Of a stretch of 64,000 bases of DNA, positions 30,944-56,674 are shown in pieces. Position numbers and translations under genes: made by a program. Numbering within the stretch: the first letter of the stretch is position 1; each line of letters starts with the position of its first letter. Origin of the DNA: Panopea generosa (Eukaryota > Mollusca > Bivalvia > Adapedonta > Hiatellidae); NCBI GenBank assembly GCA_029582155.1, contig CM055896.1:2839501-2903500 (forward strand). The letters are read 5' to 3'. The notes under the pieces are model-generated. The model saw only the letters and a list, made by a program, of their open reading frames with translations, had not been told where the DNA came from and ran no database searches.

Positions 30944-31129
30944 ACAGTCAAACCTGTGTAAGTGGTCACCTCTAATGACCAGCCACGTGTCTTAAGCAGC
31001 CACACTTATATAACTACTTCCCATTTCTATGTTTTCAGAGCAAATTAATCTGTATTAAGCAACAACCTGTCTTAAAAAGCCACTTTTTCTCCTTTCTTTG
31101 ATTGGCTGCTTAAGACAGGTTTGACCGTA
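30944..31129 (+). mobile_element. Tigger-like MITE (family T), complete
   Basis: Begins 'acagtcaaacctgtgtaagt' and ends 'taagacaggtttgaccgta', with the family's internal 'attaagcaacaacctgtctt'. Confidence 0.85.
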
Positions 31130-33085: not shown

Positions 33086-33738
33086 ATACTCTGTACCAAT
33101 CACACACAATGTCTGCCAATATTTTACATTTCATGTGGATAGATTCAGTCCAAAACTCTACCATTCACAGCTAATGTCTTTCAGTCCATAACTCTACCAT
33201 TCACAGCTAATGTCTGCCAATATTTTACATTCCATGTGGATAGATTCAGTCCATAACTCTACCATTCACAGCTAATGTCTGCCAATATTTTACATTTCAT
33301 GTGGATAGATTCAGTCAATAACTCTACCATTCACAGCTAATGTCTGCCAATATTTTACATTCCATGTGGATAGATTCAGTCCATAACTCTACCATTCACA
33401 GCTAATGTCTGCTAATATTTTACATTCCATGTGGATAGATTCAGTCCATAACTCTACCATTCACAGCTAATGTCTGCCAATATTTTACATTTCATGTGGA
33501 TAGATTCAGTCCATAACTCTACCATTCACAGATAATGTCTGCCAATATTTTACATTCCATGTGGATAGATTCAGTCCATAACTCTACCATTCACAGCTAA
33601 TGTCTGCCAAAATTTTACATTTCATGTGGATAGATTCAGTTCATAACTCTACCATTCACAGCTAATGTCTGCCAATATTTTACATTTCATGTGGAAAAAC
33701 TCAGTCCATAGTTCTGTACCATTCACACACAATGTCAA
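33086..33738. repeat. 65-bp minisatellite, ~10 units
   Basis: The unit is 'attcagtccataactctacc' + 'attcacagctaatgtctgcc' + 'aatattttacattccatgtg' + 'gatag'. Units differ mainly at tttcat/ttccat. The array is downstream of the ROC-COR-Death stop codon. Confidence 0.92.
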
Positions 33739-34555
33739 TGTTTTACTTTCATGCTTACAGCAAGTTCTTTAATTTGTACAATTCATATTTTATGTCTTCT
33801 GGCAACGTTGATAATAAAGTCCCAATTAAACCGAGTGTTATTCATTATATTATTAAGTCTACAAGATTTTCACATCCCATGTGGTAATAATCCAATCTGT
33901 CAATATCATATAAACACACCCTTTTAAAAAGAGAGACGACACACGAACATGCTATAATGCCAGTACACTTGTTATGGCACTACTTATGACATCACCATCA
34001 TAACTCCTGATATTTACTGCTGAGTGAGTCACTCCCATATATGATGGCAGCAATTAAAAAAATACATCCTACTGCATGGCATATGAAATTCCATATCCAC
34101 AGCATTAATGTTATTAGGTTATTTTAGCTTGATTCCAAAGAAAGCTGAAAGCTTATATGAAATGCTCTTGTGTTCGCTTCGTGTGCAGAATTAGAACTGA
34201 ATGTTGTACTTTTAAGAGGCCACAAGGTCAGGATGTGGATCGATACCCGGATGTCTAGTTTGAGCAGCCAACACCTCCACTGCACTATCGTCCCACTTCA
34301 TCTTCAATTCAGAAAAGCAATTCTGAAACAATCAGGATCTCACTTAACGTTATTATTAATAACTATTTCCTCATCTTCTGCAGGAAATATATGGAAAAAA
34401 ACACTTGGAATCAGCCGTACCTCAAACACAGTCCCTTTTGTGTCATCACCATTCAAAATTATCCAAGAAGTTCTTTATCAGGTCCCAGTCAACTGTGACA
34501 CTAGTGGTAATCTCTAGTACAACTAGTAAGGTCTTCAATATGGCATTTTCTCCAT
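33739..34555. other. 3' flank of the ROC-COR-Death gene
   Basis: No further exon was seen. The plus-strand frame at 34170-34517 overlaps a tRNA-like B box on the minus strand near 34230-34260 ('gggtatcgatccacatcct'), so it is probably a decayed SINE. Confidence 0.4.
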
Positions 34556-36805
34556 TTATAGTTTTTCCATTTCCACCAGCATGCTATATATCTGAAGCAC
34601 AGACGAATATGGATAATCCATCTTAATTCGGTCACAGGCAGCTAAGGAGATCCCCAGAGAAGATGCCAATAATTCCCAGCTGAATCCAATCGCCTTAGAT
34701 ATTTTGTTCAGGTCTTTTTTAGTTACTTTGCGATTAAGTTGGCTAGAATCGTAGCAAGCCAAAATTGATGTTGGACTGGACATGTTTTGTTCACCCTGTT
34801 CTTCAAAGGCACTTGGACAAGGATGCTTGAACTCACAACACTCCGAATTTGAAATTTGGGTTGACAACCTCTCTTGTGTATACCATTCTCTCATCGTTGT
34901 CTGAACATTTATTTCATGACCTTGGGTTAAAGCAGGACAGGGAACAATTTCATGGCTTTTAATTTCATCTAAATCTATAACAGACTCACTATTTTCGTTC
35001 TCTTCAACTGGACAACGAGTACAACGAATGCCCAATTTGTAATGTTCTTGTTGTGACCGAAACCTTCCAAGTTCATGCTTCAAAACCATTTCGAGAAATC
35101 GACGAAGTCTGTCACTTTGCTCACTGATGACAGCCTTTTTACCGAGGTTCACAACTCTGATTTCGATAGTCTGATTTGTCACTTCAATAATGCCCGCATG
35201 CAGCATGTCAAGTCTGTATATTCCCACATCTTCAAACAACAGACATTTTCCTTCGTATTTAACGACTGGCCACATGGCAAGGGCAGCTGCCGTAGTACGG
35301 TGGTACAAAGTCTGTGAAACGGAATCATTCTCAAGCTTGAACACCAGAGATGTTGAGGTTGAAGGTCTTCCTCGAACAAAATCATGTACATAGTCCATAC
35401 TGTGGTTTCTTAACAGACTCGGGACAACGTAGAAGTCCATTTTTATTGGTGTGTAAGTTTCCTCATCGTAGCATTGTTGTTTAGCAACAATACCAAACTT
35501 TGTCATATATTGAAGCAGTACGTCCACGTGATCACTGAAATCATTCTCTTCATCATTCCTCCAGACCTCTTTAATGAGAGTTGAACGAAGCACTGCTGTA
35601 TTCATCAGTTCATCCCAAAACTGACGAAGTGATGGTGTCTTCTTGCAAAATTTTCCAGATGTGATGATACATTTCAGTGCATCTATAATCCATTGCGAGT
35701 CCAGTATCACGTATTCTGACAAGCCAGGTTCATCAAAGTAGAATAAGGTACCCTGTGAATTGTGATATGCCAGAAATGCCAGGAGCTCAGTCTTGGTGAT
35801 TTTATGTTCAGAAGCAATCTTGCAAGCCTCGTTGAAAGTTATATGTTTTCTAGACTGTATCCTGGTAAGACTTGCTTCTAGTGGGATCCATTTTGCAGGG
35901 TTCTCCTTTGCCATTTAGATCTCCAATACTTACTATATAGTCTCTGAGTTGTTTAAGATTATCTTCTGTTGTCAGATTGTCTACTATGAATTCTCGATTG
36001 TTGGAAATGTTGTAGCATTGGCGTTTCATTGAAAATATCTCTCACTTTATCGAAATATTGGTCAGCATATTTTGCCTTCTCTGTTTCATTTCCAGGCACC
36101 ATGTCCAAGTGGGTACCTACAAGTATGACCGGGGGATTTCCATCCAACGTGCCGACAAATGAATGGATGGAATGGATCCAAAACTTGCAATAGGACCTGA
36201 CATCTCTATCACTGACCTACGTTTTCGTAGACTTCTTCGTGTATTATTCCATCGAGACCCTTGGACAAATCCAGAACTAGAAGATATATTGCGTTTGGAC
36301 TGTGGAATAATTGATGTGTTGCATAGAAAACTAGTTGCCCTCCAAAATCCCAAATGTTAAAGCATTTAGATTTGTCAGCAATCAAACCCTTTGATGATTT
36401 TTTTACTTCTAATGCCGTAGCAAATTTTCTTATGCTTTCGTCTTCGTATGTGGAGCCTTTGGTTGGATATCTGTGACGTATTTTTCCACCTGGCTCTTGG
36501 GGTTGTTTCATAAGCTGTGCGACAGTTACTAAACGCTCAATGTGTTCCTTCTCAACATCTACTTGTTCTTTTTCCCATGTCCCTTCGTCTGAAATTTTGC
36601 ATTTATGCACATGTATATCTATGCCATTTGTGCTCTCTACGCCTTCAACAGGTATACCCAGCAGCCGTCTTGTTACAGGTACTTTTCCCCACACCATAAT
36701 GACCCACCAACATGACTCGCAAGGATGCACTCTTCTCACTACCTTCAGCTAAAGCTTTCACACAGGTTTCTATGACGGATGGATCAATATCCCTAATCCT
36801 GCTAC
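34556..36805 (-). CDS. ROC-COR-Death protein, large 3' exon, four frameshifts
   Basis: After the acceptor TTATTACAG the exon enters in phase 1 (G|GT) with S-R-I-R-D-I-D-P-S-V-I-E-T-C. The ROC GTPase follows: P-loop G-H-Y-G-V-G-K-S-T, G3 D-F-G-G-Q, G4 G-T-H-L-D. Next comes the COR domain (A-K-W-I-P-L-E-A-S-L ... V-I-L-D-S-Q-W-I-I-D-A-L-K), then a C-terminal death-fold domain (W-E-L-L-A-S-S-L-G-I-S) ending at 34556. ROC-COR units are dimeric GTPases; with a Death domain, as in DAPK1, they act in death or immune signalling. Four reading-frame changes are needed: near 36677 (right after the P-loop), 36205-36222, 35992-35996 and 35905. Each is cured by removing one base. The 452-codon frame from 35914 holds only COR plus Death and its first ATG is not a genuine start. 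Either a decaying copy or assembly errors. Confidence 0.85.
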
Positions 36806-37860: not shown

Positions 37861-38042
37861 ACAGTCAAACCTGTGTAAGCGGTCACCTCTATTAAGCAGC
37901 TTACTTGCCTTAAGCAGCCACATTTGATGTTTCCTATTTCTATGCTTTCTGAGCAAATTAACCTTTATTAAGCAATAACTTGTCTTAAAGGGCCATCTTT
38001 GCTCATTCCATTGACAGGCTGTTTAAGACAGGTTTGACTGTA
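37861..38042 (+). mobile_element. Tigger-like MITE (family T), complete
   Basis: Begins 'acagtcaaacctgtgtaagc' and ends 'gacaggtttgactgta'. It lies back to back with the hAT-like MITE. Confidence 0.88.
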
Positions 38043-38177
38043 TATAATTTTCAAAAATAGAGTTAAATGAAACTTTATCAAAATTGGTGTGTGCCCCTTT
38101 AAACAGTATGTGTATGAAATACGAGGGTTTAGAATACTCAGGACTTTAAACACAATGTTACTGTTTGTATTAATAAC

Positions 38178-38350
38178 ACAGTTAAACCTGTGTAAGCGGT
38201 CACCTCTATAAAGTAGCCACCTGTCTTAAGCCACCATGTTCTCTATTTCCCATTTCTATGCTGTCAGAGTAAATTGACCATTATTAAGCAACAACCTGTC
38301 TTAAAATAACAATTTCCCTAGACTGGCTGCTTAAGACAGGTTTGACTGTA
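38178..38350 (+). mobile_element. Tigger-like MITE (family T) that seeds the array
   Basis: A complete T element whose right half ('attaagcaacaacctgtctt' to 'gacaggtttgactgta') is the same segment found at the start of every ~1.05-kb unit. The other units keep only this right half, so this copy marks the ancestral end of the array. Confidence 0.85.
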
Positions 38351-38469
38351 CAATAAATATGTGTTATCAAGCTATAAATGTACATTTTTTTTAATGTTTG
38401 GTACAAATGTATTAAGAAAATAAAAATATGCCAAAAACAAAATACAAAATAGAATATAGAACAACTCAC

Positions 38470-38490
38470 CAAAAGTTGTCTCAAGAGACT
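38470..38490 (-). CDS. Micro-exon B (21 nt), phase 1-1
   Basis: Acceptor TATTTTACACATTTTCAG and donor GTGAGTTG bound 21 nt encoding (x)-S-L-E-T-T-F with one base carried over. It would splice directly to the ROC exon, giving T-T-F-G-S-R-I-R-D-I-D-P. In the eight other units the same site has lost its donor (GTGAGT has become TTTTTAATGAG), so only this last copy looks usable. Confidence 0.55.
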
Positions 38491-38997
38491 CTGAAAATGT
38501 GTAAAATACAAACAGATCTTAATACATTGTATAATCAATATCAAATCTTTTTCTTTTATTCTTAAATGCATCTTTCTAAAGCGTTCTTGAGTAAAATATA
38601 CAATGAAATAAAAGAGCTATCAAATATCATTAAATACTGTAAATATAAAGAAAAATATGGATTTTGTCAAACTTGGCAAGCTTTTTCGTGGCCATCTAGG
38701 TTTTTTTCCCCCCGCCATTTTGAAATTGTCACAGTGGTTTCTGTGTTAAAATAATCAGTTGGCCTTGTTCAATGTCTGTGCCAAGTTTGGTGCTTTTCTA
38801 TCAGTCAAAGGTAGTAATATTATTTCTAGTTTATGTGTACACGCCTTGAGGAAGACACGTTATCCACATAATTATGTAGTGCTGGTTCTACCTAGGAAGG
38901 CTTCGAGCAGCATTTGTCATAGTTGTAAGAACTTGTTTGACAATCGATGTAAAAATAGATTTATGTTGTTGCTATGACAACCTACAAATAAACTTAC

Positions 38998-39018
38998 TTC
39001 CATATATCTTCTGAATCT
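38998..39018 (-). CDS. Micro-exon A1 (21 nt)
   Basis: Acceptor TTTCCATTTTAG, donor GTAAGTTTA. Reads (x)-I-Q-K-I-Y-G with an A carried over, which with the next exon's AG makes K. It is the most diverged A exon towards the ROC end. Confidence 0.6.
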
Positions 39019-40054
39019 CTAAAATGGAAAATAATGAAAAGTTTTTAGTATATGTCATAGAACTGCATGAAACTACTCATATATACACAAATTTAATAAT
39101 GTTTATATGATAATATTAAACAGGAGAGCTATGATGGCTCAAAAGCTGATTTGTTCAAACATGTCAGTATTCGTCTACTTCCTTATTGAAAATTCATGTG
39201 GGTTTTTTTTCAGACCTTTTCTTACATTTAGAGGGTAAAAAACCCTTGGATGTAACATCTGATAACTGATGTTATAAATTATCTTAACAGTGTTTTATTT
39301 TCCAGTTTGATACAGCCTTTAAAAAACGCATTAAAAAATGTATTAAGCAACAACCTGTCTTAAAATAACACTTTCTCTAGACTGGCTGCTTAAGACAGGT
39401 TTGACTGTACAATAAATATGTGTTATCAAGCTATAAATGTACAAGTTTTTTTTAATGTTTCGTACAAATGTATTAAGAAAAATAAATGTGCCAAAAACAA
39501 AATACAAAATAAAAACTCATTAAAAACAGTATTTGTCCTAAGAAACTCTGAAAATGTGTAAAATACAAACAGATCTTAATACATTGTATAATCAATATCA
39601 AATCTTTTTCTTTTATTCTTAAATGCATCTTTCTAAAGCGTTCTTGAGTAAAATATACAATGAAATAAAAGAGCTATCAAATATCATTAAGTACTGTAAA
39701 TATAAAGAAAAATATGGATTTTGTCAAACTTGGCAAGCTTTTTAGTGGCTATCTAGGTTTTTTCCCCCCCGCCATTTTGAAATTGTCACAGTGGTTTCTG
39801 TGTTAAAATAATCAGTTGGCCTTGTTCAATGTCTGTGCCAAGTTTGGTGCTTTTCTATCAGTCAAAGGTAGTAATATTATTTCTAGTTTATGTGTACACG
39901 CCTTGAGGAAGACACGTTATCCACATAATTAAGTAGTGCTGGTTCTACCTAGGAACGCTTCGAGCAGCATTTGTCATAGTTGTAAGAACTTGTTTGACAA
40001 TCGATGAAAAAATAGATTTATGTTGTTGCTATGACAACCTACAAATAAACTTAC

Positions 40055-40075
40055 TTTCAATTGACTTCTGAAGCT
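40055..40075 (-). CDS. Micro-exon A2 (21 nt, heptad L-Q-K-S-I-E)
   Basis: Acceptor CCATTTTAG, donor GTAAGTTTA, phase 1 to 1. It encodes one full heptad, (E)-L-Q-K-S-I-E, with hydrophobic residues four apart within the exon and three apart across the junction. Confidence 0.65.
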
Positions 40076-41100
40076 CTAAAATGGAAAATAATGTAATGTT
40101 TTGAGTATATGTCATAGAACTGCACGAAACTACTCATATATACACAAATTTAATAATGTTTATATGATAGTATTAAACAGGAGAGCTATGATGGCCCAAA
40201 GGCTGATTTGTTCAAACATGTCAGTATTCGTCTTCTTCCTTATTGAAAATTCATGTGTTTTTTCAAACTTTTTCTTACATTTAGAGGGTAAAAAACCCTT
40301 GGATGTAACATCTGATAACTGATGTTAGAAATTATCTTAACAGTGTTTTATTTTCCAGTTTGATACAGCCTTTAAAAAATGCATTAAAAAATGTATTAAG
40401 CAACAACCTGTCTTAAAATAACACTTTCTCTAGACTGGCTGCTTAAGACAGGTTTGACTGTACAATAAATATGTGTTATCAAGCTATAAATGTACAATTT
40501 TTTTTTAATGTTTGGTACAAATGAATTAAGAAAAATAAAATATGCCAAAAACAAAATAAAAACTCATTAAAAACAGTATTTGTCCTAAGAAACTCTGAAA
40601 ATGTTTAAATACAAACAGATCTTAATACATTGTATAATCAATATCAAATCTTTTTCTTTTATTCTTAAATGCATCTTTCTAAAGCGTTCTTGAGTAAAAT
40701 ATACAACGAAATAAAAGAGCTATCAAATATCATTAAATACTGTAAATATAAAGAAAAATATGGATTTTGTCAAACTTGGCAAGCTTTTTAGTGGCCATCT
40801 AGGTTTTTTTTCCCCCGCCATTTTGAAATTGTCACAGTGGTTTCTGTGTTAAAATAATCAGTTGGCCTTGTTCAATGTCTGTGCCAAGTTTGGTGCTTTT
40901 CTATCAGTCAAAGGTAGTAATATTATTTCTAGTTTATGTGTACACGCCTTGAGGAAGACACGTTATCCACATAATTAAGTAGTGCTGGTTCTACCTAGGA
41001 ACGCTTCGAGCAGCATTTGTCATAGTTGTAAGAACTTGTTTGACAATCGATGAAAAAATAGATTTATGTTGTTGCTATGACAACCTACAAATAAACTTAC

Positions 41101-41121
41101 CTTCAAATGACTTCTGAAGCT
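41101..41121 (-). CDS. Micro-exon A3 (21 nt, heptad L-Q-K-S-F-E)
   Basis: Same splice sites as A2. It differs from A2 by I to F and by the last base, which sets the next codon to GAG (E) instead of AAG (K). Confidence 0.65.
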
Positions 41122-42154
41122 CTAAAATGTAAAATAATGTAATGTTTTGAGTATATGTCATAGAACTGCACGAAACTACTCATATATACACAAATTTAAT
41201 AATGTTTATATGATAGTATTAAACAGGAGAGGTATGATGGCTCAAAGGCTGATTTGTTCAAACATGTCAGTATTCATCTTCTTCCTTGTTGAAAATTCAT
41301 GTGGGTTTTTTCAAACTTTTTCTTACATTTAGAGGGTAAAAACCCTCGGATGTAACATCTGATAACTGATGTTAGAAATTATCTTAACAGTGTTTTATAT
41401 TCCAGTTTGATACAGCCTTTAAAAAATGCATTAAAAAATGTATTAAGCAACAACCTGTCTTAAAATAACACTTTCTCTAGACTGGCTGCTTAAGACAGGT
41501 TTGACTGTACAATAAATATGTGTTATCAAGCTATAAATGTACAATTTTTTTTTAATGTTTGGTACAAATGTATTAAGAAAAATTAAATATGCCAAAAACA
41601 AAATACAAAATAAAAACTCATTAAAAACAGTATTTGTCCTAAGAAACTCTGAAAATGTTTAAAATACAAACAGATCTTAATACATTGTATAATCAATATC
41701 AAATCTTTTTCTTTTATTCTTAAATGCATCTTTCTAAAGCGTTCTTGAGTAAAATATACAATGAAATAAAAGAGCTATCAAATATCATTAAATACTGTAA
41801 ATATAAAGAAAAATATGGATTTTGTCAAACTTTGCAAGCTTTTTAGTGGCCATCTAGGTTTTTTTCCCCCGCCATTTTGAAATTGTCACAGTGGTTTCTG
41901 TGTTAAAATAATCAGTTGGCCTTGTTCAATGTCTGTGCCAAGTTTGGTGCTTTTCTATCAGTCAAAGGTAGTAATATTATTTCTAGTTTATGTGTACACG
42001 CCTTGAGGAAGACACGTTATCCACATAATTAAGTAGTGCTGGTTCTACCTAGGAACGCTTCGAGCAGCATTTGTCATAGTTGTAAGAACTTGTTTGACAA
42101 TCAATGTAAAAATAGATTTATGTTGTTGCTATGACAACCTACAAATAAACTTAC

Positions 42155-42175
42155 CTTTTAATCTCTTCTGAATCT
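42155..42175 (-). CDS. Micro-exon A4 (21 nt, heptad I-Q-K-R-L-K)
   Basis: Same splice sites. It encodes (E)-I-Q-K-R-L-K, a heptad whose last residues are basic. Five of 21 bases differ from A3, against about two differences in the neighbouring ~110 bp. Confidence 0.65.
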
Positions 42176-43360
42176 CTAAAATGGAAAATAATGTAAAGTT
42201 TTGAGTATATGTCATAGAACTGCACGAAACTACTCATATATACACAAATTTAATAATGTTTATATGATAGTATTAAACAGGAGAGGTATGATGGCCCAAA
42301 GGCTGATTTGTTCAAACATGTCAGTATTCATCTTCTTCCTTGTTGAAAATTCATGTGGGTTTTTTCAAACTTTTTCTTACATTTAGAGGGTAAAAAACCC
42401 TTGGATGTAACATCTGATAACTGATGTTAGAAATTATCTTAACAGTGTTTTATATTCCAGTTTGATACAGCCTTTAAAAAATGCATTAAAAAATGTATTA
42501 AGCAACAACCTGTCTTAAAATAACATAAAATATACAGGTTTGACTGTACAATAAATATGTGTTATCAAGCTATAAATGTACAAGTATTTTTTTTTAATGT
42601 TTGGTTCAAATGTATTAAGAAAAATAAAATATGCCTAAAACAAAATACAAAATAAAAACTCATTAAAAACAGTATTTGTCCTAAGAAACTCTGAAAATGT
42701 GTAAAATACAAACAGATCTTAAAGCATTGTATAATCAATATCAAATCTTTTTCTTTTATTCTTAAATGAATTTTTCTAAAGCGTTCTTGAGTAAAATATA
42801 CAATGAAATAAAAGAGCTATCAAATATCATTAAATACAAAGGGCTATGTAAAGGGCTATGTGCATGCTAGCTTACATTGGTAATTCTTGTATTTGGGAAC
42901 AAGATTTGAGCTCTTGGCATTGACAAATGTTTCGTTTAAGCATATTTTATTTCGAATATCTTACACTATTACATATTTACAAACAATTTTGTCAAAAGAA
43001 TTGGAATAAAAGACAAGCTTATGGAATTCCTCTCCTAAAATGTTTGTGTCATTCAAATAATGGCAATAGTATTTCATGATTCAAATCATTCCCTAAAACA
43101 GCAATAATTAGCTAACTGGGTCTGTTAAATAAATTGAAATCTTATAATATTTCGTTGAAATTTGAGATCTTAAATAATTGTATTAAAATTTGAGATATTG
43201 TATAATTTAAGATCTTATATAATTTTGTTATATTACTATAGATGGTCAGGTTTGACCAATCCAAGAACTTTTTAATGATTTTATGATTAACTACAATGTT
43301 AACTATTGTGTAAGTTTTCCAATTAACAATCTATTCACTCTAGCACACAACCTACAAGTT

Positions 43361-43565
43361 ATGTGGAGCGCGTGGTCCAATGGTACAGCATCGGACCCAA
43401 GACTGATGGGTCATGGGTTCTATATATCCCACCACAGCTATGTGTGGTGTCCTTCTGCAAGACACTTTTTCTGCATATGCTTAGTACTGGTTCTACCATG
43501 GAAGACTTGGAGAGTGATTTATCTAAGTTATAATAACTTGTTTCATAATCAATATAAATAAGTCA
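43361..43565 (+). mobile_element. SINE family S3 inside block 1
   Basis: Head 'gcgcgtggtccaatggtaca' and body 'ctgcaagacactttttctgc'. The duplicated copy at 48942-49146 is nearly identical, so the SINE predates the block duplication. Confidence 0.8.
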
Positions 43566-43679
43566 GTTTAAAACTAGAGCTAACGGAAGGAAGTGGAGCA
43601 CTTTGAATAGAGAAACACTTCAGCAAGATAATAAATACTATTTCATTATATACAAATAAATCTTATATTCATTTATTTT

Positions 43680-43905
43680 TATCATTTTCAGCCATAAACT
43701 ACATTCATCAATCTTTTTCACTTTCAGCTATAAACTACATTATTTTCAGCCATTAACTACATTCTTCAATCTTATTCATTTTCAGCTATAAACTACATTC
43801 TTCAATCTTTTTCATTTTCAGCTATAAACTACATTCTTTAATCTTTTTCATTTTCAGTCATAAACTACATTCTTCTATCTTTTCCATTTTCATCTATAAA
43901 CTAAC
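43680..43905. repeat. ~36-bp tandem repeat, about six units
   Basis: Units of 'cattttcagctataaactac' + 'attcttcaatcttttt'. They are repeated in block 2 at 49260-49485. Confidence 0.85.
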
Positions 43906-44296
43906 TTCTTTTTAAAATTTTCTAAACCTGTCACAGTCAACACTAGAAGCAGGTTGATAAAGAAAAGAAGAAAATGGCAGGAATTTACCTTCAAGATTCC
44001 CGGGTTTTCCAGCAATAAGATTACAAAACAACATTATCACCTTATCAATTGTACACTAAAATATGTAAAGTGCTCCTAAACTTCCAAAAAAACATTTTTT
44101 TTCATAACACTAGCAGAGTTTGTCAAGTTCTCTGCCTGTAGCACAAGGACTATCAAATTTGGATGATGGGCTACCAAAAAAATCATAAGCAATTCTTGTT
44201 AGAACAGCCAGGTAAAACTTCAACTCTATTTTAACTTTAGATTTAACTTTTAGTCTTTAAAATATTATATGATTCATACAAAATAAAATAAAATAC

Positions 44297-44312
44297 CTTT
44301 ATCATCAGGTTC
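44297..44312 (-). CDS. Candidate micro-exon C in block 1 (16 nt)
   Basis: Acceptor GTTTTAATTTCAG, donor GTATTTTA. The content suggests E-P-D-D-K, but the length is 16 nt, one base more than the 15-nt homologue in block 2. That would break the frame unless the extra G at the acceptor is an error or is skipped. Confidence 0.3.
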
Positions 44313-45629
44313 CTGAAATTAAAACAAAACTATTTTATGTATGTGAATACATGTATTACATATATAATTTATTACATCATGTATTTTGTTTTATAGAAAA
44401 ATTATATCATATGTCCTGTGACAATTCAAATAAATTTGATACTTCAAGCAAACAGGAGGACTATGTTGACACTAAATTGTTCGCCTTTGGCATATAACCA
44501 GACTTTCATAAGGATTTCTTGCATTCTGGGTAAGGAAATCTGCATTTTCACCGGGATTAGTATTTCTTTCTCACCCCAGGGCCAAGATAGAATTCTTGTG
44601 CTGTGATGTTGGAACCATTTATGATGTAAAGCATAAAATATATATATGACACAAACCATACACCTGTAATTAAACGTCTTAATGCAAAAGTGATTGTTGT
44701 AAAAAATACAATAATGAATTAAGGTAAAATTATTATTCAATGCATTTGGCATGCAAAGAAAAGTCTGAGATAGTCTGAGATATATAACATTCTTATTTAT
44801 TAATGAATTTAAAAAAAAATCATTTATTTTGGTTAAAATCTTTACATGCTTACATAATATTATTTAAATTATCATAATTAATTTACAATTTCATTTGCTA
44901 TCTAGGCACACAGGTCTGTCATACATAAAGTCATATATTTTAAACATGGTTTTTCGTATTTCTGTATAGAAGTTTTGTTTCTGAGAACTAACTATAAAAG
45001 TAAGGGATCAATTTACCTCTATTTATTTTAGATAAACGAGGAGGTATTGAGTTTAACAATGAGGGTGAAATAATCTTATTTGGGCCACTGTAATAACTCT
45101 GTCCTGTCTAACAAGAACAAAAATTAAATTGTCTCAAAGTTTTGATGGTTATGAACATTTTAACCAAACATAATCAAGATTGGACAAAAACTGAAGATAC
45201 AAGTGTTAACTAGGACACAATCAGCAATTTTCAATCAATCAAGTCCTTCAGTGTGGTACAGGTTCTTGTAAAATTGATGATTAATCTTGAAATAACAGCA
45301 GAGTACAGGAAAGTTTAACTGTTCCATCTTATTAACAACCTTGTTGTTCGATCCTTCGCCATGTTTATGTGTAGTTTCAATACAGAAACGCACATTCCCA
45401 TCTCATTCCCAGTTAACGTGACAAGAGGGGTATCAGTCAAAGGTAGTAATATTATTTCTAGTTTATGTGTACACGCCTTGAGGAAGACACGTTATCCACA
45501 TAATTAAGTAGTGCTGGTTCTACCTAGGAATGCTTCGAGCAGCATTTGTCATAGTTGTAAGAACTTGTTTGACAATCGATGTAAAAATAGATTTATGTTG
45601 TTGCTATGACAACCTACAAATAAACTTAC

Positions 45630-45653
45630 CTTTTAATCTCTTCTGAATCATCT
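45630..45653 (-). CDS. Micro-exon A5 (24 nt, eight residues)
   Basis: Same splice sites as A4 and the same sequence plus one inserted in-frame codon (ATG), giving (E)-M-I-Q-K-R-L-K. One extra residue would put a skip into the predicted coiled coil. The change keeps the reading frame. Confidence 0.62.
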
Positions 45654-46688
45654 CTAAAATGGAAAATAATGTAAAGTTTTGAGTATATGTCATAGAACTG
45701 CACGAAACTACTCATATATACACAAATTTAATAATGTTTATATGATAGTATTAAACAGGAGAGCTATAATGGCCCGAAGGCTGATTTGTTCAAACATGTC
45801 AGTATTCATCTTCTTCCTTATTGAAAATTCATGTGGGTTTTTTCAAACTTTTTCTTACATTCAGAGGGTAAAAAACCCTCGGATGTAACATCTGATAACT
45901 GATGTTAGAAATTATCTTAACAGTGTTTTATATTCCAGTTTGATACAGCCTTTAAAAAATGCATTAAAAAATGTATTAAGCAAAAACCTGTCTTAAAATA
46001 ACACTTTCTCTAGACTGGCTGCTTAAGACAGGTTTGACTGTACAATAAATATGTGTTATCAAGCTATAAATGTACAATTTTTTTTTAATGTTTGGTACAA
46101 ATGTATTTAGAAAAATAAAATATGCCAAAAACAAAATACAAAATAAAAACTCATTAAAAACAGTATTTGTCCTAAGAAACTCTGAAAATGTTTAAAATAC
46201 AAACAGATCTTAATACATTGTATAATCAATATCAAATCTTTTTCTTTTATTCTTAAATGCATCTTTCTAAAGTGTTCTTGAGTAAAATATACAATGAAAT
46301 AAAAGAGCTATCAAATATCATTAAATACTGTAAATATAAAGAAAAATATGGATTTTGTCAAACTTTGCAAGCTTTTTAGTGGCTATCTAGGTTTTTTTTC
46401 CCCCGCCATTTTGAAATTGTCACAGTGGTTTCTGTGTTAAAATAATCAGTTGGCCTTGTTCAATGTCTGTGCCAGGTTTGGTGCTTTTCTATCAGTCAAA
46501 GGTAGTAATATTATTTCTAGTTTATGTGTACACGCCTTGAGGAAGACACGTTATCCACATAATTAAGTAGTGCTGGTTCTACCTAGGAACGCTTCGAGCA
46601 GCATTTGTCATAGTTGTAAGAACTTGTTTGACAATCGATGTAAAAATAGATTTATGTTGTTGCTATGACAACCTACAAATAAACTTAC

Positions 46689-46709
46689 CTTCAATTGACT
46701 TCTGAAGCT
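46689..46709 (-). CDS. Micro-exon A6 (21 nt, heptad L-Q-K-S-I-E)
   Basis: Same splice sites. It is identical to A2 except for the final base (G, making the following codon GAG). Confidence 0.65.
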
Positions 46710-47737
46710 CTAAAATGGAAAATAATGTAATGTTTTGAGTATATGTCATAGAACTGCACGAAACTACTCATATATACACAAATTTAATAATGTTTATATG
46801 ATAGTATTAAACAGGAGAGGTATGATGGCTCAAAGGCTGATTTGTTCAAACATGTCAGTATTCATCTTCTTCCTTGTTGAAAATTCATGTGGGTTTTTTC
46901 AAACTTTTTCTTACATTTAGAGGGTAAAAAACCCTCGGATGTAACATCTGATAACTGATGTTAGAAATTATCTTAACAGTGTTTTATATTCCAGTTTGAT
47001 ACAGCCTTTAAAAAATGCATTAAAAAATGTATTAAGCAACAACCTGTCTTAAAATAACACTTTCTCTAGACTGGCTGCTTAAGACAGGTTTGACTGTACA
47101 ATAAATATGTGTTATCAAGCTATAAATGTACAATTTTTTTTTAATGTTTGGTACAAATGAATTAAGAAAAATAAAATATGCCAAAAACAAAATAAAAACT
47201 CATTAAAAACAGTATTTGTCCTAAGAAACTCTGAAAATGTTTAAATACAAACAGATCTTAATACATTGTATAATCAATATCAAATCTTTTTCTTTTATTC
47301 TTAAATGCATCTTTCTAAAGCGTTCTTGAGTAAAATATACAACGAAATAAAAGAGCTATCAAATATCATTAAATACTGTAAATATAAAGAAAAATATGGA
47401 TTTTGTCAAACTTGGCAAGCTTTTTAGTGGCCATCTAGGTTTTTTTTTCCCCCGCCATTTTGAAATTGTCACAGTGGTTTCTGTGTTAAAATAATCAGTT
47501 GGCCTTGTTCAATGTCTGTGCCAAGTTTGGTGCTTTTCTATCAGTCAAAGGTAGTAATATTATTTCTAGTTTATGTGTACACGCCTTGAGGAAGACACGT
47601 TATCCACATAATTAAGTAGTGCTGGTTCTACCTAGGAACGCTTCGAGCAGCATTTGTCATAGTTGTAAGAACTTGTTTGACAATCGATGAAAAAATAGAT
47701 TTATGTTGTTGCTATGACAACCTACAAATAAACTTAC

Positions 47738-47758
47738 CTTCAAATGACTTCTGAAGCT
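47738..47758 (-). CDS. Micro-exon A7 (21 nt, heptad L-Q-K-S-F-E)
   Basis: Same splice sites and the same 21 bases as A3. It is directly followed (downstream) by A6 in the transcription direction. Confidence 0.65.
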
Positions 47759-48941
47759 CTAAAATGGAAAATAATGTAATGTTTTGAGTATATGTCATAG
47801 AACTGCACGAAACTACTCATATATACACAAATTTAATAATGTTTATATGATAGTATTAAACAGGAGAGGTATGATGGCTCAAAGGCTGATTTGTTCAAAC
47901 ATGTCAGTATTCATCTTCTTCCTTGTTGAAAATTCATGTGGGTTTTTTCAAACTTTTTCTTACATTTAGAGGGTAAAAACCCTCGGATGTAACATCTGAT
48001 AACTGATGTTAGAAATTATCTTAACAGTGTTTTATATTCCAGTTTGATACAGCCTTTAAAAAATGCATTAAAAAATGTATTAAGCAACAACCTGTCTTAA
48101 AATAACATAAAATATACAGGTTTGACTGTACAATAAATATGTGTTATCAAGCTATAAATGTACAAGTATTTTTTTTTAATGTTTGGTACAAATGTATTAA
48201 GAAAAATAAAATATGCCTAAAACAAAATTCAAAATAAAAACTCATTAAAAACAGTATTTGTCCTAAGAAACTCTGAAAATGTGTAAAATACAAACAGATC
48301 TTAAAGCATTGTATAATCAATATCAAATCTTTTTCTTTTATTCTTAAATGAATTTTTCTAAAGCGTTCTTGAGTAAAATATACAATGAAATAAAAGAGCT
48401 ATCAAATATCATTAAATACAAAGGGCTATGTAAAGGGCTATGTGCATGCTAGCTTACATTGGTAATTCTTGTATTTGGGAACAAGATTTGAGCTCTTGGC
48501 ATTGACAAATGTTTCGTTTAAGCATATTTTATTTCGAATATCTTACACTATTACATATTTACAAACAATTTTGTCAAAAAATTGGAATAAAAGACAAGCT
48601 TATGGAATTCCTCTCCTAAAATGTTTGTGTCATTCAAATAATGGCAATAGTATTTCATGATTCAAATCATTCCCTAAAACAGCAATAATTAGCTAACTGG
48701 GTCTGTTAAATAAATTGAAATCTTATAATATTTCGTTGAAATTTGAGATCTTAAATAATTGTATTAAAATTTGAGATATTGTATAATTTAAGATCTTATA
48801 AAATTATGTTATATTACTATAGATGGTCAGGTTTGACCAATCCAAGAACTTTTTAATGATTTTATGATTAACTACAATGTTAACTATTGTGTAAGTTTTC
48901 CAATTAACAATCTATTCACTCTAGCACACAACCTACAAGTT

Positions 48942-49146
48942 ATGTGGAGCGCGTGGTCCAATGGTACAGCATCGGACCCAAGACTGATGGGTCATGGGTT
49001 CTATATATCCCACCACAGCTATGTGTGGTGTCCTTCTGCAAGACACTTTTTCTGCATATGCTTAGTACTGGTTCTACCATGGAAGACTTGGAGAGTGATT
49101 TATCTAAGTTATAATAACTTGTTTCATAATCAATATAAATAAGTCA
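48942..49146 (+). mobile_element. SINE family S3 inside block 2
   Basis: Duplicated copy of the SINE at 43361, with the same head and tail. Confidence 0.8.
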
Positions 49147-49259
49147 GTTTAAAACTAGAGCTAACGGAAGGAAGTGGAGCACTTTGAATAGAGAAACACT
49201 TCAGCAAGATAATAAATACTATTTCATTATATACAAATAAATCTTGTATTCATTTATTT

Positions 49260-49485
49260 TTACCATTTTCAGCCATAAACTACATTCATCAATCTTTTTC
49301 ACTTTCAGCTATAAACTACATTATTTTCAGCCATAAACTACATTCTTCAATCTTATTCATTTTCAGCTATAAACTACATTCTTCAATCTTTTCATTTTCA
49401 GCTATAAACTACATTCTTTAATCTTTTTCATTTTCAGTCATAAACTACATTCTTCTATCTTTTCCATTTTCATCTATAAACTAAC
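49260..49485. repeat. ~36-bp tandem repeat, block 2 copy
   Basis: Same 'cagctataaactacattctt' units as at 43680, with small differences. Confidence 0.85.
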
Positions 49486-49875
49486 TTCTTTTTAAAATGT
49501 TCGAACCTGTCACAGTCAACACTAGAAGCAGGTTGATAAAGAAAAGAAGAAAATGGCAGGGATTTACCTTCAAGATTCCCGGGTTTTCCAACAATAAGAT
49601 TACAAAACAACATTATCACCTTATCAATTGTACATTAAAATATGTAAAGTGCTCCTAAACTTCCAAAAAAACATTTTTTTTCATAACACTAGCAGAGTTT
49701 GTCAAGTCCTCTGCCTGTAGCACAAGGACTATCAAATTTGGATGATGGGCTACCAAAAAAATCATAAGCAATTCTTGTTAGAACAGCCAGGTAAAACTTC
49801 AACTCTATTTTAACTTTAGATTTAACTTTTAGTCTTTAAAATATTATATGATTAATACAAAATAAAATAAAATAC

Positions 49876-49890
49876 CTTTATAATCAGGTT
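49876..49890 (-). CDS. Candidate micro-exon C' in block 2 (15 nt)
   Basis: Acceptor GTTTTAATTTCAG, donor GTATTTTA. In phase 1 it reads (G)AA-CCT-GAT-TAT-AAA-G, that is E-P-D-Y-K, phase 1 out, compatible with A7 downstream and A8 upstream. Confidence 0.4.
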
Positions 49891-51008
49891 CTGAAATTAA
49901 AACAAAACTATTTTATGCATGTGAATACATGTATTACATATATAATTTATTACATCATGTATTTTGTTTTATAGAAAAATTATATCATATGTCCTGTGAC
50001 AATTCAAATAAATTTGATACTTCAAGCAAACAGAAGGACTATGTTGACACTAAATTGTTCGCCTTTGGCATATAACCAGACTTTCATAAGGATTTCTTGC
50101 ATTCTGGGTAAGGAAATCTGCATTTTCACCGGGATTAGTATTTCTTTCTCACCCCAGGGCCAAGATAGAATTCTTGTGCTGTGATGTTGGAACCATTTAT
50201 GATGTAAAGCATAAAATATATATATGACACAAACCATACACCTGTAATTAAACGTCTTAATGCAAAAGTGATTGTTGTAAAAAATACAATAATGAATTAA
50301 GGTAAAATTATTATTCAATGCATTTGGCATGCAAGGAAAAGTCTGAGATAGTCTGAGATATATAACATTCTTATTTATTAATGAATTTAAAAAAATTTCA
50401 TTTATTTTGGTTAAAATCTTTACATGCTTACATAATATTATTTAAATTATCATAATTAATTTACAATTTCATTTGCTATCTAGGCACACAGGTCTGTTAT
50501 ACATAAAGTCATATATTTTAAACATGGTTTTTCGTATTTCTGTATAGAAGTTTTGTTTCTGAGAACTAACTATAAAAGTAAGGGATCAATTTACCTCTAT
50601 TTATTTTAGATAAACGAGGAGGTATTGAGTTTAACAATGAGGGTGAAATAATCTTATTTCGGCCACTGTAATAACTCTGTCCTGTCTAACAAGAACAAAA
50701 ATTAAATTGTCTCAAAGTTTTGATGGTTATGAACATTTTAACCAAACATAATCAAGATTGGACAAAAACTGAAGATACAAGTGTTAACTAGGACACAATC
50801 AGCAATTTTCAATCAATCAAGTCCTTCAGTGTGGTACAGGTTCTTGTAAAATTGATGATTAATCTTGAAATAACAGCAGAGTACAGGAAAGTTTAACTGT
50901 TCCATCTTATTAACAACCTTGTTGTTTGATCCTTCGCCATGTTTATGTGTAGTTTCAATACAGAAACGCACATTCCCATTTCATTCCCAGTTAACGTGAC
51001 AAGAGGGG

Positions 51009-51955
51009 TATCAGTCAAAGGTAGTAATATTATTTCTAGTTTATGTGTACACGCCTTGAGGAAAAACTTTGCAAGCTTTTTAGTGGCTATCTAGGTTTTT
51101 TTCCCCCCGCCATTTTGAATTGTCACAGTGGTTTCTGTGTTAAAATAATCAGTTGGCCTTGTTCAATGTCTGTGCCAAGTTTGGTGCTTTTCTATCAGTC
51201 AAAGGTAGTAATATTATTTCTAGTTTATGTGTACACGCCTTGAGGAAGACACGTTATCCACATAATTAAGTAGTGCTGGTTCTACCTAGGAACGCTTCGA
51301 GCAGCATTTGTCATAGTTGTAAGAACTTGTTTGACAATCGATGTAAAAATAGATTTATGTTGTTGCTATGACAACCTACAAATAAACTTACCTCCAAGTC
51401 TCAAATGAATCTCTAAAATGGAAAATAATGTAAAGTTTTGAGTATATGTCATAGAACTGCACGAAACTACTCATATATACACAAATTTAATAATGTTTAT
51501 ATGATAGTATTAAACAGGAGAGCTATGATGGCCCGAAGGCTGATTTGTTCAAACATGTCAGTATTCATCTTCTTCCTTATTGAAAATTCATGTGGGTTTT
51601 TTCAAACTTTTTCTTACATTTAGAGGGTAAAAAACCCTCGGATGTAACATCGATGATGTTAGAAATTATCTTAACAGTGTTTTATATTCCAGTTTGATAC
51701 AGCCTTTAATAAATGCATTAAAAAATGTATTAAGCAACAACCTGTCTTAAAATAACACTTTCTCTAGACTGGCTGCTTAAGACAGGTTTGACTGTACAAT
51801 AAATATGTGTTATCAAGCTATAAATGTACAATTTTTTTTTAATGTTTGGTACAAATGTATTAAGAAAAATAAAATATGCCAAAAACAAAATACAAAATAA
51901 AAACTCATTAAAAACAGTATTTGTCCTAAGAAACTCTGAAAATGTGTAAAATGTC
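51009..51955. repeat. Array section 3, rearranged end unit
   Basis: It starts at 'tatcagtcaaagg', is cut at 51063 and restarts with 'aaactttgcaagctttttag', so part of the unit is present twice. The unit ends abruptly at 51955, where the 2.1-kb duplication begins. Confidence 0.85.
51392..51412 (-). CDS. Micro-exon A8 (21 nt, most upstream and most diverged)
   Basis: Acceptor CCATTTTAG, donor GTAAGTTTA. Reads (x)-I-H-L-R-L-G. Seven of 21 bases differ from A4, while the adjoining 40 bp on the donor side and ~100 bp on the acceptor side look identical to those of A4. Confidence 0.6.
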
Positions 51956-52106
51956 CGAAAATCAGGGCCTGGGGTCCATTATGAATCCCCAATTTTCATG
52001 AGCTGGGATTCTCTTGAAAATCTGGGATCCTAGGAATCCGAGGACACTGTTATAGTCAAGCCCCCGAGTGTAACAGTTGATAACACTATATAATATACTG
52101 ACTCAC

Positions 52107-52119
52107 CTTCAATCTAAAC
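52107..52119 (-). CDS. Candidate micro-exon E1 (13 nt)
   Basis: Acceptor TTTTATTGCAG and donor GTGAGTCAG bound 13 nt. One base longer than its duplicate E2, it would shift the frame or read a stop, so this copy is probably not used or contains an error. Confidence 0.2.
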
Positions 52120-52736
52120 CTGCAATAAAAGAAATACAAGTTAATATCAAAGCATAATTATAATCATATCAAACATCACGGAGATTGTGGCCAACAAGAT
52201 TCAAACTCACGACCCATGGATTGACAGTCAGATGCGCTAACGACTGGGCTTATCAGGTTCGGCCAACTTAACATTTCACCACTCCACTGACATGAGCTAC
52301 ACAAGCATCGCAATATGACAACTGACCTGACACAAGCTGTCAATCAAACAAGTCGATAATCCGACCAATGATCAATATTGTTTTCAGAGCCACCATTTTT
52401 CTTAGACAAGCGAACTGTCTCTAAGTAAACACTACATTGTATTACACTGTATTTACTTGGACTAAACAACACCAGTGACCAGTGGGCGGAGCTGACAGTC
52501 AGGTCAGTTAGATGACAACTCCACTAACATGAGATACTGATGTATAGAAAGAAGACATTTACATTCTTCATGAATTGAAGAACTATAAATCTAGTACAAC
52601 AACACAATTTGGTCTGTATTGGTATAAAATAATATGAAACATACCTGTCAACCTCATGTTCAATAATGAAATATAAATGTATATCATTAAAAACGCATTT
52701 GTATAGATGTGTAAACTTATCTACTACAGGTACAGT

Positions 52737-53023
52737 GAAACCTGTTTTAGCTCCGCCGGTAGAGCGTCTAACTACAAATCCAGGGGTTGTGAGTTCGAAT
52801 CCCCACCCAGCCACAGTATCTGTGATGATTTATATATGGTAATGCATCTCATTGACATTCATCTCTCACTGCTAATTCAAGTGATAGAGCTATCAGTTAC
52901 TTGCGGAGATGGGTGTGCTTGACTACTGGTTAACCTTTCAGGATTTCAGGAAAGAGTGGTTAGTAAAACTGTTTGTGTTAGCATTCGATGGAATAAAAAT
53001 GATGCTAAATATTTATTCAATCA
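52737..53023 (+). mobile_element. SINE family S1 in duplication copy 1
   Basis: Head 'ttttagctccgccggtagag' + 'cgtctaac', B box 'gagttcgaatccccaccc', tail 'ataaaaatgatgctaaatat'. Confidence 0.85.
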
Positions 53024-53338
53024 AAATTCAATTTCAAAAGCAAATTTATTTCATCATTCAGTATGTGGTACCCATGACAAACATCCTTGTCACTTGACAA
53101 CCTATCCAGAAAATTTCATCAAAACGTCTTACAAGACAGAAGATATTTTAATGAAAATTATTTTATTATATTTATTCTTAATGCTATGGACTATACCTTC
53201 TCACTAAGAAATGATAATATACATGTATATTTGTGATAATCCTGCCCTGAGTGCCTTTTTACCCTGGGGATCCCTTAGGAGTCCCTATTTTTTAAAATCT
53301 CAAAATCAGTGATCTGGTCTCAGTTATATAAACATAAT

Positions 53339-53519
53339 ACAATCAAACCTGTACAGGCAGTCACCTCTATTAAGCAGCCATCTGTCTTAGGTAACCATAT
53401 TTTCTATTTCATATTTCTAAGCTTCTGGAGTAGATAAAACTGTATTAAGCAACAACCTGTCTTAAAAGGCCACCTTTGCTCCTTACATTGACTGGTTGCA
53501 TAAGACAGGTTTGACTGTA
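53339..53519 (+). mobile_element. Tigger-like MITE (family T) in duplication copy 1
   Basis: 'aatcaaacctgtacaggcag' to 'aagacaggtttgactgta', with the internal 'ttaagcaacaacctgtctta'. Confidence 0.85.
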
Positions 53520-54227
53520 GTATCAATTAACATTCGCATAAAATATTTCATTAAAATATCTAGCAAGATATTTCAATAAATATTACTGTAAATTAATCTT
53601 TTAATTCTTAATGATATGGACAATACCTTCTCACTAATAAATGATAATATGTATTTGTGAATCCTGACCTGAGTGCCTTTTGTATCTCAGGAATACCTAC
53701 TGTTTATAACTGGGCACCCTTCTCAAAATCAGTGATCCTGTCTGAGTTATATAATCAGAGTGGATTATCAATTTGTAAACACTTTGTACAATACAGGTGC
53801 ATCCCTTGACTAATTATTTGAACAGGCGTATGGGTTATTTAATGATACCAATGACATTTGCAGGTTCTCTCGCCTCTTTGTTGAGTTGTCATGGTGATAT
53901 AAGGTCACTTCCAAGATGCTTAACATATGCAAATATGCCAGGGCACCCAGGTGTAGCATATTTTTTTTTAATGTTACATCTGCTTAAATATAATTAAATT
54001 GTAGATGTCATTATCTGAAAAGAAAATGTGACCGCAAACAAAATTTTGCCAATTTTTCAGAAGATAAAACTTGACCAAAAATCAGGGCCTGGGGTCCATT
54101 ATGAATCCCCAATTTTCATGAGCTGGGATTCTCTTGAAAATCTGGGATCCTAGGAATCCGAGGACACTGTTATAGTCAAGCCCCCGAAGTGTAACAGTTG
54201 ATAACACTATATAATATACTGACTCAC

Positions 54228-54239
54228 CTTCATATAAAC
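54228..54239 (-). CDS. Candidate micro-exon E2 (12 nt)
   Basis: Acceptor TTTTATTGCAG, donor GTGAGTCAG. Twelve nt keep the frame; in phase 1 it reads (x)-L-Y-E, in phase 0 V-Y-M-K. It lies between the 56.6-kb exon and the heptad array on the same strand, but the phase link to either side is unresolved. Confidence 0.3.
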
Positions 54240-54861
54240 CTGCAATAAAAGAAATACAAGTTAATATCAAAGCATAATTATAATCATATCAAACATCACG
54301 GAGATTGTGGCCGACAAGATTCAAACTCACGACCCATGGATTGACAGTCAGATGCGCTAACGACTGGGCTTATCGGGTTCGGCCAACTTAACATTTCACC
54401 ACTCCACTGACATGAGCTACACAAGCATCGCAATATGACAACTGACCTGACACAAGCTGTCAATCAAACAAGTCGATAATCCGACCAATGATCAATATTG
54501 TTTTCAGAGCCACCATTTTTCTTAGACAAGCGAACTGTCTCTAAGTAAACACTACATTGTATTACATTGTATTTACTTGGACAAACAACACCAGTGACCA
54601 GTGGGCGGAGTGACAGTCAGGTCAGTTAGATGACAACTCCACTAACATGAGACATGAGACACTGATGTATAGAAAGAAGACATTTACATTCTTCATGAAT
54701 TGAAGAACTATAAATCTAGTACAACAACACAATTTGGTCTGTATTGGTATAAAATAATATGAAACATACCTGTCAACCTCATGTTCAATAATGAAATATA
54801 AATGTATATCATTAAAAACGCATTTGTATAGATGTGTAAACTTATCTACTACAGGTACAGT

Positions 54862-55146
54862 GAAACCTGTTTTAGCTCCGCCGGTAGAGCGTCTAACTAC
54901 AAATCCAGGGGTTGTGAGTTCGAATCCCCACTCAGCCACAGTATCTGTGATGATTTATATATGGTAATGCGTCTCATTGACATTCATCTCTCACTGCTAA
55001 TTCAAGTGAGAGAGCTATCAGTTACTTGTGGAGATGGGTGTGCTTGACTACTGGTTAACCTTCCAGGATTTCAGGAAAGAGTGGTTAGTAAAACTGTTTG
55101 TGTTAGCATTCAATGGAATAAAAATGATGCTAAATATTTATTCAAT
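54862..55146 (+). mobile_element. SINE family S1 in duplication copy 2
   Basis: Duplicate of the SINE at 52737 with a few base changes ('cactcagcc' for 'cacccagcc'). Confidence 0.85.
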
Positions 55147-55434
55147 CAAAATTCAATTTCAAAAGCAAATTTATTTCATCATTCAGTATGTGGTACCCAT
55201 GACAAACATCCTTGTCACTTTGACAACCTGTCCAGAAAATTTCATCAAAACGTCTTACAAGACAGAAGATATTTTAATGAAAATTATTTTAAATTGTAAT
55301 TACTATACCTTCTCACTAAGAAATGATAATATACATCCTGCCCTGAGTGCCTTTTTACCCTGGGGATCCCTTAGGAGTCCCTATTTTTTAAAACCTCAAA
55401 ATCAGTGATCTGGTCTCAGTTATATAAACATAAT

Positions 55435-55614
55435 ACAATCAAACCTGTACAGGCAGTCACCTCTATTAAGCAGCCATCTGTCTTAAGTAACCATATTTTC
55501 TATTTCACATTTCTATGCTTCTCGAGTAGATAAAACTGTATTAAGCAACAACCTGTCTTAAAAGGCCATCTTTGCTCCTTACATTGACTGGTTGCATAAG
55601 ACAGGTTTGACTTT
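55435..55614 (+). mobile_element. Tigger-like MITE (family T) in duplication copy 2
   Basis: Duplicate of the MITE at 53339. Its right end is altered ('gtttgactttaa'). Confidence 0.8.
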
Positions 55615-56225
55615 AATATCAATTAACATTTCCATAAAATATTTCATAAAAATATCTAGCAAGATTTTTCAATAAATATTACTGTAAATTATTTGTTTTA
55701 TTCTTAATGATATGGACAATACCTTCTCACTAATAAATGATAATATGTATTTGTGAATCCTGACCTGAGTGCCTTTTGTATCTCAGGAATACCTACTTTT
55801 TATAACTGGGCACCCTTCTCAAAATCAGTGATCCTGTCTGAGTTATATAAACAGAGTGGATTATCAATTTGTAAACACTTTGTGCAATACAGGTGCATCC
55901 CTTGATTAATTATTTGAACAGGCGTATGGGTTATTCAATGATACCAATAACATTAGCAGGTTCTCTCGCCTACTTTGTTGAGTTGTCATGGTGATATAAG
56001 GTCACTTCCAAGATGCTTAACATATCCAAACATGCCAGGGCACCCAGGTGTAGCATAATTTTTTTTAATGTTACATCTGCTTAAATATAATTAAATTGTA
56101 GATGTCATTATCTGAAAAGAAAATGTGACCGCAAACAAATTTTTGCCAATTTTCAAAAGATAAAACGTAACCAAAAATCAGGGCCTGGGGTCCATTATGA
56201 ATCCCCAATTTCCATGAGCTGGGAT

Positions 56226-56515
56226 TCTCTATTAATCCAGGGGTATTGAATTTGAATCCCCACCCTGCCACAGTCTTCGTGATTTATTTATATACAACAT
56301 TTCATCTCATTGTCATTTGTCTCTCACTGCTGATTCATGTGGGAAAGTTATCAGTTACTTGTAGAGATGTGTATGCTTGAGTACAGGTTAATTTTCCAGG
56401 ATCGCAGGAAAGAGTGGTTAGGTTAACTTATCAATGGCATAAAAATGATGCTTAATATTCAATCAATCAATCAATCAATCAATTAATCAACCAATCAATC
56501 AATTAATCATTTAAG
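56226..56515 (+). mobile_element. SINE family S1 with (aatc)n tail
   Basis: B box region 'attgaatttgaatccccacc', body 'gtgggaaagttatcagttac', tail 'gcataaaaatgatgcttaat' followed by about a dozen aatc repeats. The head is missing, replaced by the broken third copy of the 2.1-kb unit. Confidence 0.8.
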
Positions 56516-56568: not shown

Positions 56569-56674
56569 CTGCCATTGTAACAGTTTATTTATACTGGCTG
56601 CCACAGAGGTAGACACAATTAATGGTGTCCTTATATACACTACTTTCTTTGCACCTTCTTCTTCAGTAATGCAC
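56569..56674 (-). CDS. Internal exon, 35 codons, likely same gene as the array
   Basis: Acceptor TTATCTTGCAG and donor GTAAAGG bound 106 nt. Only one frame is open: C-I-T-E-E-E-G-A-K-K-V-V-Y-I-R-T, then P-L-I-V-S-T-S-V-A-A-S-I-N-K-L-L-Q-W-Q. It enters in phase 2 and leaves in phase 0. The content looks like real protein. I do not recognise a domain. Strand and position make it a candidate upstream exon of the ROC-COR-Death gene, but the phase-0 exit does not fit the phase-1 entry of A8 directly, so at least one linking exon is missing. Confidence 0.6.

Follow-up and report, generated by a model that had tools for sequence, protein, structure and literature searches.

A stretch of 64,000 nucleotides of the bivalve Panopea generosa (GenBank assembly GCA_029582155.1, contig CM055896.1, positions 2,839,501 to 2,903,500; hereafter the window, whose own numbering is used) probably carries a mollusc ROC-COR-Death (ROCO) gene with an N-terminal coiled coil built from duplicated and diversified micro-exons, each of them encoding one heptad. 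The positions and phases of these candidate exons, the open frame obtained by joining them, the duplication of the unit in which they lie, their exon-specific divergence and the domain matches downstream are all read from the DNA itself.

A preliminary description of the window had proposed nine minus-strand micro-exons, lying between TTTTAG or TTTTCAG acceptors and GTAAGT or GTGAGT donors and translated in phase 1. The nine intervals sit exactly where they had been placed, eight of 21 nucleotides (nt) and one (45630) of 24 nt. Such an acceptor precedes and such a donor follows each of them, phase-1 translation yields the heptads described and the ROC exon at 36805 is likewise entered in phase 1. 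Read 5' to 3' on the minus strand, the putative micro-exons encode E-I-H-L-R-L-G (51392-51412), E-L-Q-K-S-F-E (47738-47758), E-L-Q-K-S-I-E (46689-46709), E-M-I-Q-K-R-L-K (the 24-nt exon, 45630-45653), E-I-Q-K-R-L-K (42155-42175), E-L-Q-K-S-F-E (41101-41121), E-L-Q-K-S-I-E with a final base A (40055-40075), K-I-Q-K-I-Y-G, also with a final base A (38998-39018), and K-S-L-E-T-T-F (38470-38490). The last of these is a second site of a ~1.05-kb unit; in five other full units the acceptor of this second site is kept and its donor is absent.

Two upstream features missed by the preliminary description join the array to a candidate start. The proposed coding start, ATGGCAG (56569-56575, minus strand), would form the end of exon 1 and is followed by gtaaag; an in-frame TAA lies upstream of this ATG, with three codons between them. 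A putative 12-nt phase-1 micro-exon, GTTTATATGAAG (L-Y-E), is located at 54228-54239 (minus strand), with 10/12 pyrimidines ahead of its acceptor and a score of 9/9 over the donor positions. When the segment with the ATG is joined in order to the 12-nt exon and to the nine intervals, one frame stays open, MAGLYEEIHLRLGELQKSFEELQKSIEEMIQKRLKEIQKRLKELQKSFEELQKSIEKIQKIYGKSLETTF, and continues into the ROC exon with GSRIRDIDPSVIETCVKALAEGSEKSASLRVMLVGHYGVGKST; of the two alternative frames of these 211 nt, one contains 4 stops and the other 6. Because every junction is in phase 1, the frame would survive the omission of any one exon or combination of exons. By eye, the N-terminus, MAGLYEEIHLRLG, shows no hydrophobic core such as a signal peptide would have. 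The other long open frame of exon 1 was also considered and rejected, since by eye that phase runs into stops both within the array and within the ROC exon.

Eight of the intervals occupy the equivalent position in the ~1.05-kb unit, which is repeated in direct orientation. Self-comparison delimits a downstream group of tandem units (38282-42837) and two copies of a 5.58-kb block (39856-45485 and 45431-51063), each made of three units plus filler and 98.35% identical, with 62 mismatches and 16 gaps over 5,647 columns. The candidate heptad modules announced in the preliminary description are present; as an array, however, they are tandem duplicates of one unit, and their most telling feature, exon-specific diversification, had been overlooked. 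A 2.1-kb tandem duplicate (51947-54134 versus 54065-56230, 95.9% alike) stands immediately upstream of the array and contains a 13-nt, out-of-frame copy of the 12-nt micro-exon (52107-52119, minus strand). Alleles of bivalves can diverge as much as these tandem blocks, and the tandem position of the 5.58-kb blocks at 98.35% and of the 2.1-kb blocks at 95.9% speaks for a rival reading in which alleles of a highly heterozygous genome have been assembled one after the other, so that the true array would be shorter and its copy number inflated. Yet several 1.05-kb units lie inside each 5.58-kb block, so false duplication cannot account for the entire array, and exons that are twins by position differ at 7, 1 and 5 of 21 columns. 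Such an assembly artefact is regarded as unlikely.

Other repeats are found in the same region. The near-identical fillers of the array (43640-43960 and 49220-49510) contain a 36-bp minisatellite, the unit of which has a plus-strand TTTTCAG. A dispersed element with CAGTCAAACCTGTCTTAAGC-like ends occurs at 37861-38361, 30934-31141, 53328-53519, 55424-55624 and 4128-4276, with ~78-82% similarity among these places, and part of it is also present within the array units.

The divergence between units is concentrated in the proposed exon. The core of eight units was aligned over 758 columns, flank columns being scored when six or more letters were present. In this alignment, 12 of the 21 exon columns are variable versus 44/716 flank columns (Fisher 2e-9), and the exon is the densest 21-column window, with 12 variable columns against 6 in the next non-overlapping one. 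The exon differs more than the flank at p<0.001 in 21 of the 28 unit pairs, although neither alignment columns nor unit pairs are independent, which makes all these p-values optimistic and takes some weight from the argument; in the remaining seven pairs, the exons differ at only 0 to 2 positions. Nearly all changes alter the amino acid, the pooled proportion of differences being 0.034 at synonymous (pS) and 0.296 at nonsynonymous (pN) sites over 15 pairs of six exons. This calculation covered six of the eight exons, omitting 41101 (identical to 47738) and the 24-nt exon at 45630; it disregarded the last base and took G as the first base of the first codon. The sole exon indel measures 3 nt, a single in-frame triplet that distinguishes the 24-nt exon from 42155. 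An earlier eight-unit alignment of ~1.1 kb was discarded: two units exit the repeat, their tails were misaligned and the 13-16% flank differences that they displayed are artefactual.

Only 1/17 informative flank columns, at -22, tracks the two main exon classes. The positional twins 42155 and 47738 have a common flank haplotype, yet 5/21 of their exon columns differ, and 47738 and 41101 combine an identical exon with different flank haplotypes. Short-tract exchange between units fits this mixing. Alternatively, the exon differences could be old variants which survived conversion of the introns, with neither fast evolution nor selection for diversity at present and with a coiled coil that is fixed and constitutive. 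The association of exon class with the -22 marker and the seeming exchange of exons between units (47738/41101) are compatible with this explanation. However, old haplotypes should bring old flanks with them, and the uniformity of the flanks therefore counts against it: within ~50 nt of the exon, 6 of ~100 columns are variable by hand count, similar to the overall proportion, and exon class is followed by just that one informative column. We consider survival of old variants somewhat unlikely, and the divergence is read as a sign that differing exons have been favoured, whether they evolve fast or are old and shielded from homogenisation. The repeat displays a diversifying pattern, in which exchange between units and shared descent confound the inference of selection.

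The predicted peptide resembles coiled-coil sequences. By eye, most exons correspond to heptad positions c-d-e-f-g-a-b, in which d and a are hydrophobic; the register gains one residue in the 24-nt exon and is offset by one in the final exon, K-S-L-E-T-T-F. Changes between exons affect all heptad positions, with the greatest variety at g, a and b, which are positions known to influence partner choice in coiled coils. The hydrophobic power of the joined peptide at a period of 3.5 residues was matched by 14/20,000 shuffles. In the PDB, its sequence matches are headed by 8qae (1.1e-6), a coiled coil of designed sequence, and by methyl-accepting chemotaxis proteins, among 44 distinct sequences at E<=1, some of which are not coiled coil by name, low complexity being uncontrolled in this search. 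In Pfam, the N-terminal 113 residues gave 153 weak matches; among the 25 listed, none reaches the cut-off and none belongs to a leucine-rich repeat (LRR) family. As the preliminary description had it, the candidate exons would each add approximately one heptad of coiled-coil-like sequence, in an open frame, ahead of the ROC exon.

The ROC-COR-Death exon (34453-36805, minus strand) is entered in phase 1, spans ~2.35 kb and contains no array of short exons. Among the open reading frames (ORFs) of the window downstream of the array, Pfam detects Roc (1.1e-7) and COR-A (8.9e-17) in two ORFs, as well as a Death domain C-terminal to COR (8.1e-5; 23.1 bits versus a cut-off of 22.6). The tblastn pieces contain GHYGVGKST and WDFGGQ, which we take to be motifs of the Roc domain, with its P-loop. 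On the basis of these matches, the exon is that of a ROCO (Roc-COR) GTPase with a Death domain after COR.

A single intact frame is absent from this exon, a feature that the preliminary description had also missed: four frame changes separate the tblastn pieces (36700-35900 and near 34560), or five if a short piece at ~35975-35910 counts as coding. Each piece is open within itself, and identity to relatives (P0001-P0005) is 31-50% on every side of the changes, so that recent inactivation and assembly error are both possible. The gene could be dying or dead, its micro-exons formerly used and its ROC-COR-Death part no longer yielding a full protein; four or five frame changes in a large exon permit a pseudogene, and the second copy of the 12-nt exon, with its 13 nt, is out of frame. 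Such decay is judged rather unlikely, since the conserved pieces retain the Roc and COR motifs, the array is in frame from end to end and indels of this kind also arise in uncorrected long-read assemblies, as might the 16 gaps between the two 5.6-kb blocks. Directly downstream of the exon, a 65-bp satellite is present in 8.4 copies with 95% matches (33180-33727), and further on, at 26795-27070, a 137-bp sequence stands in two tandem copies with 100% matches. Rfam and tRNA scans of the 64-kb window returned 0 matches each.

Homology searches gave 5 relatives among 3,625 candidates with the COR-Death ORF as query and, with residues 1-230 of the joined model, 12 among 5,867. The named relatives are all from bivalves (Mercenaria mercenaria, Ruditapes philippinarum and Sinanodonta woodiana), and Roc, COR and Death are all present in P0003 and P0004. 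Bivalve ROC-COR-Death proteins (such as P0003 and P0006 of M. mercenaria and P0004 and P0011 of R. philippinarum) have the same domain order as the Panopea gene, and what precedes ROC differs from the array: the lead is near-absent in P0003 and P0009, contains PF02176 in P0006, a kinase and an SH2 domain in P0010 and a Ras-like domain in P0012, the heptad array being absent by eye. Very unlike leads ahead of ROC are borne by P0006, P0007, P0010, P0011 and P0012, mostly bivalve where named. Repeated swapping of the N-terminus among ROC-COR(-Death) relatives is suggested.

Several results weigh against the interpretation of the array as exons of a coiled coil. Among the 17 relatives retrieved, P0001 and P0002 start inside COR or ROC, and a heptad lead was seen by eye in 0/15 of those reaching the ROC start; residues 1-95 of the joined model have no homologue at E<=0.1 among 1,932 candidates. 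Hydrophobic power reaches 148 at a period of 3.6 residues and only 75 at 3.5, the period for which the shuffles were made. When only the six full units are aligned, the exon is variable at 9/21 columns, with 66 other variable columns, and the densest window is the second exon site (11/21). The 25 densest non-exon windows of this alignment all lie at the second site, a density due to one unit, that ending at 38470, and close to the alignment end.

The splice signals are to be counted on the same side. When both strands of the window were scanned with the strict pattern TTTT(C/A)(C/T)AG-[9..45 nt]-GTRAGT, the minus strand yielded the nine array intervals and the plus strand two matches, which are copies of a single 38-nt stretch; a first-order Markov null gives a mean of 1.78 strict matches per strand and a maximum of 7 (100 simulations). 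Under a looser rule, 16 minus-strand and 7 plus-strand matches were obtained, where 15 simulations of the null ranged from 5 to 21 with a mean of 10.5, and 38998 and 38470 fall under its donor threshold. As eight of the nine intervals are copies of one unit, they represent only two independent site types; counting them as nine independent finds was rejected, also in view of the Markov null. The splice consensus by itself is within chance expectation and proves no exons, so the case rests on the frame that the exons share and on their specific divergence. The intervals might not be exons at all, and chance splice-like sites might have arisen within a duplicated intron, a reading favoured by there being two independent site types where 1.78 matches per strand are expected. 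Yet the changes between units end at the proposed splice borders and, in phase 1, almost always replace an amino acid, their one indel keeps the frame and the joined frame is open from ATG to ROC, which makes an origin by chance very unlikely.

From these features, we infer the splicing, the coiled-coil structure, the selection and the function of the array. The region would represent the 5' half of a ROCO gene, in which 21-nt (once 24-nt) phase-1 micro-exons encode a coiled coil approximately nine heptads long. The array would have grown by tandem duplication of the ~1.05-kb exon-plus-intron unit, in addition to duplication of the 5.58-kb block, exons being kept or made different and introns staying or being made alike. 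With symmetric phase 1-1 exons, any subset would preserve the frame from the ATG to the P-loop, and duplication, exchange of units and possibly exon skipping would alter the coiled coil by whole heptads. Since diversification is exon-specific, the array differs in sequence as well as, possibly, in length. The modular ruler of the preliminary description may be one of several possible functions, variable inclusion being compatible with the phase. ROC-COR modules are described as dimerising chiefly via COR, and a monomer-dimer cycle has been proposed (PMC6337361). A variable coiled coil just ahead of ROC would plausibly determine with which partners, in what stoichiometry or at what spacing the ROC-COR-Death protein assembles, which appears to be its most likely way of working. 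In another mollusc, Aplysia, ROC-COR domains are reported in Toll-like receptor and MyD88-like proteins (PMC9334734), which makes an immune role thinkable. More speculatively, and with little probability, the array could be a heptad code in which symmetric one-heptad micro-exons, diversified at core and neighbouring positions, are exchanged between units in short tracts and combined by splicing into a repertoire of coiled coils with different partners, by which signalling through the Death domain, perhaps in immune defence, would be gated.

Were the exons spliced, an oligomerising GTPase could have both its length and its choice of partners edited one heptad at a time, and the array would offer a clean natural case of exons far more different than their near-identical introns. 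Exons of such shortness can escape annotation. No one-heptad-per-exon array was found in the accessible portions of the open-licence PMC literature on bivalve or mollusc micro-exons, heptad exons and introns more conserved than exons; the exact acceptor-plus-exon pattern gave 0 matches in each of viral_contigs and genome_contigs, collections of viral, bacterial and archaeal DNA where a mollusc sequence is not expected.

Among known systems, Dscam-type arrays also consist of tandem duplicated exons with diversified sequence, which code for parts of Ig domains and are selected one at a time. Schistosome micro-exon genes are described as encoding secreted proteins with a signal peptide from short exons, most of 15 bp (PMC10526429). 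They have in common with the Panopea array tiny exons that are mostly multiples of three, separated by long introns, together with duplication and splicing variation in the schistosome genes; their coding region is mostly micro-exons, whereas here micro-exons precede a large GTPase exon. The closest parallel is provided by brown-algal LRR-ROC-COR genes, in which each 72-bp phase-2 exon encodes one LRR of 23 residues (PMC11378527; Zambounis et al. 2012 cited therein). Diversifying selection on the LRR repeat and splice variants with different exon sets have been described for these genes (PMC11378527). The Panopea array resembles them in plan, with in-phase exons that stand in tandem on a ROC-COR gene and each correspond to one structural repeat, and the Panopea gene is not a member of the algal group: its candidate exons are phase-1 heptad exons of 21 or 24 nt, the gene is that of an animal and includes a Death domain, and its splicing is putative. 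The novelty claimed in the preliminary description narrows accordingly, exon-per-repeat arrays on ROCO genes being already known from brown algae and only the putative one-heptad micro-exons being left to it. If spliced, these would make the Panopea array an animal counterpart to the brown-algal ROCO arrays, using the smallest unit of a coiled coil.

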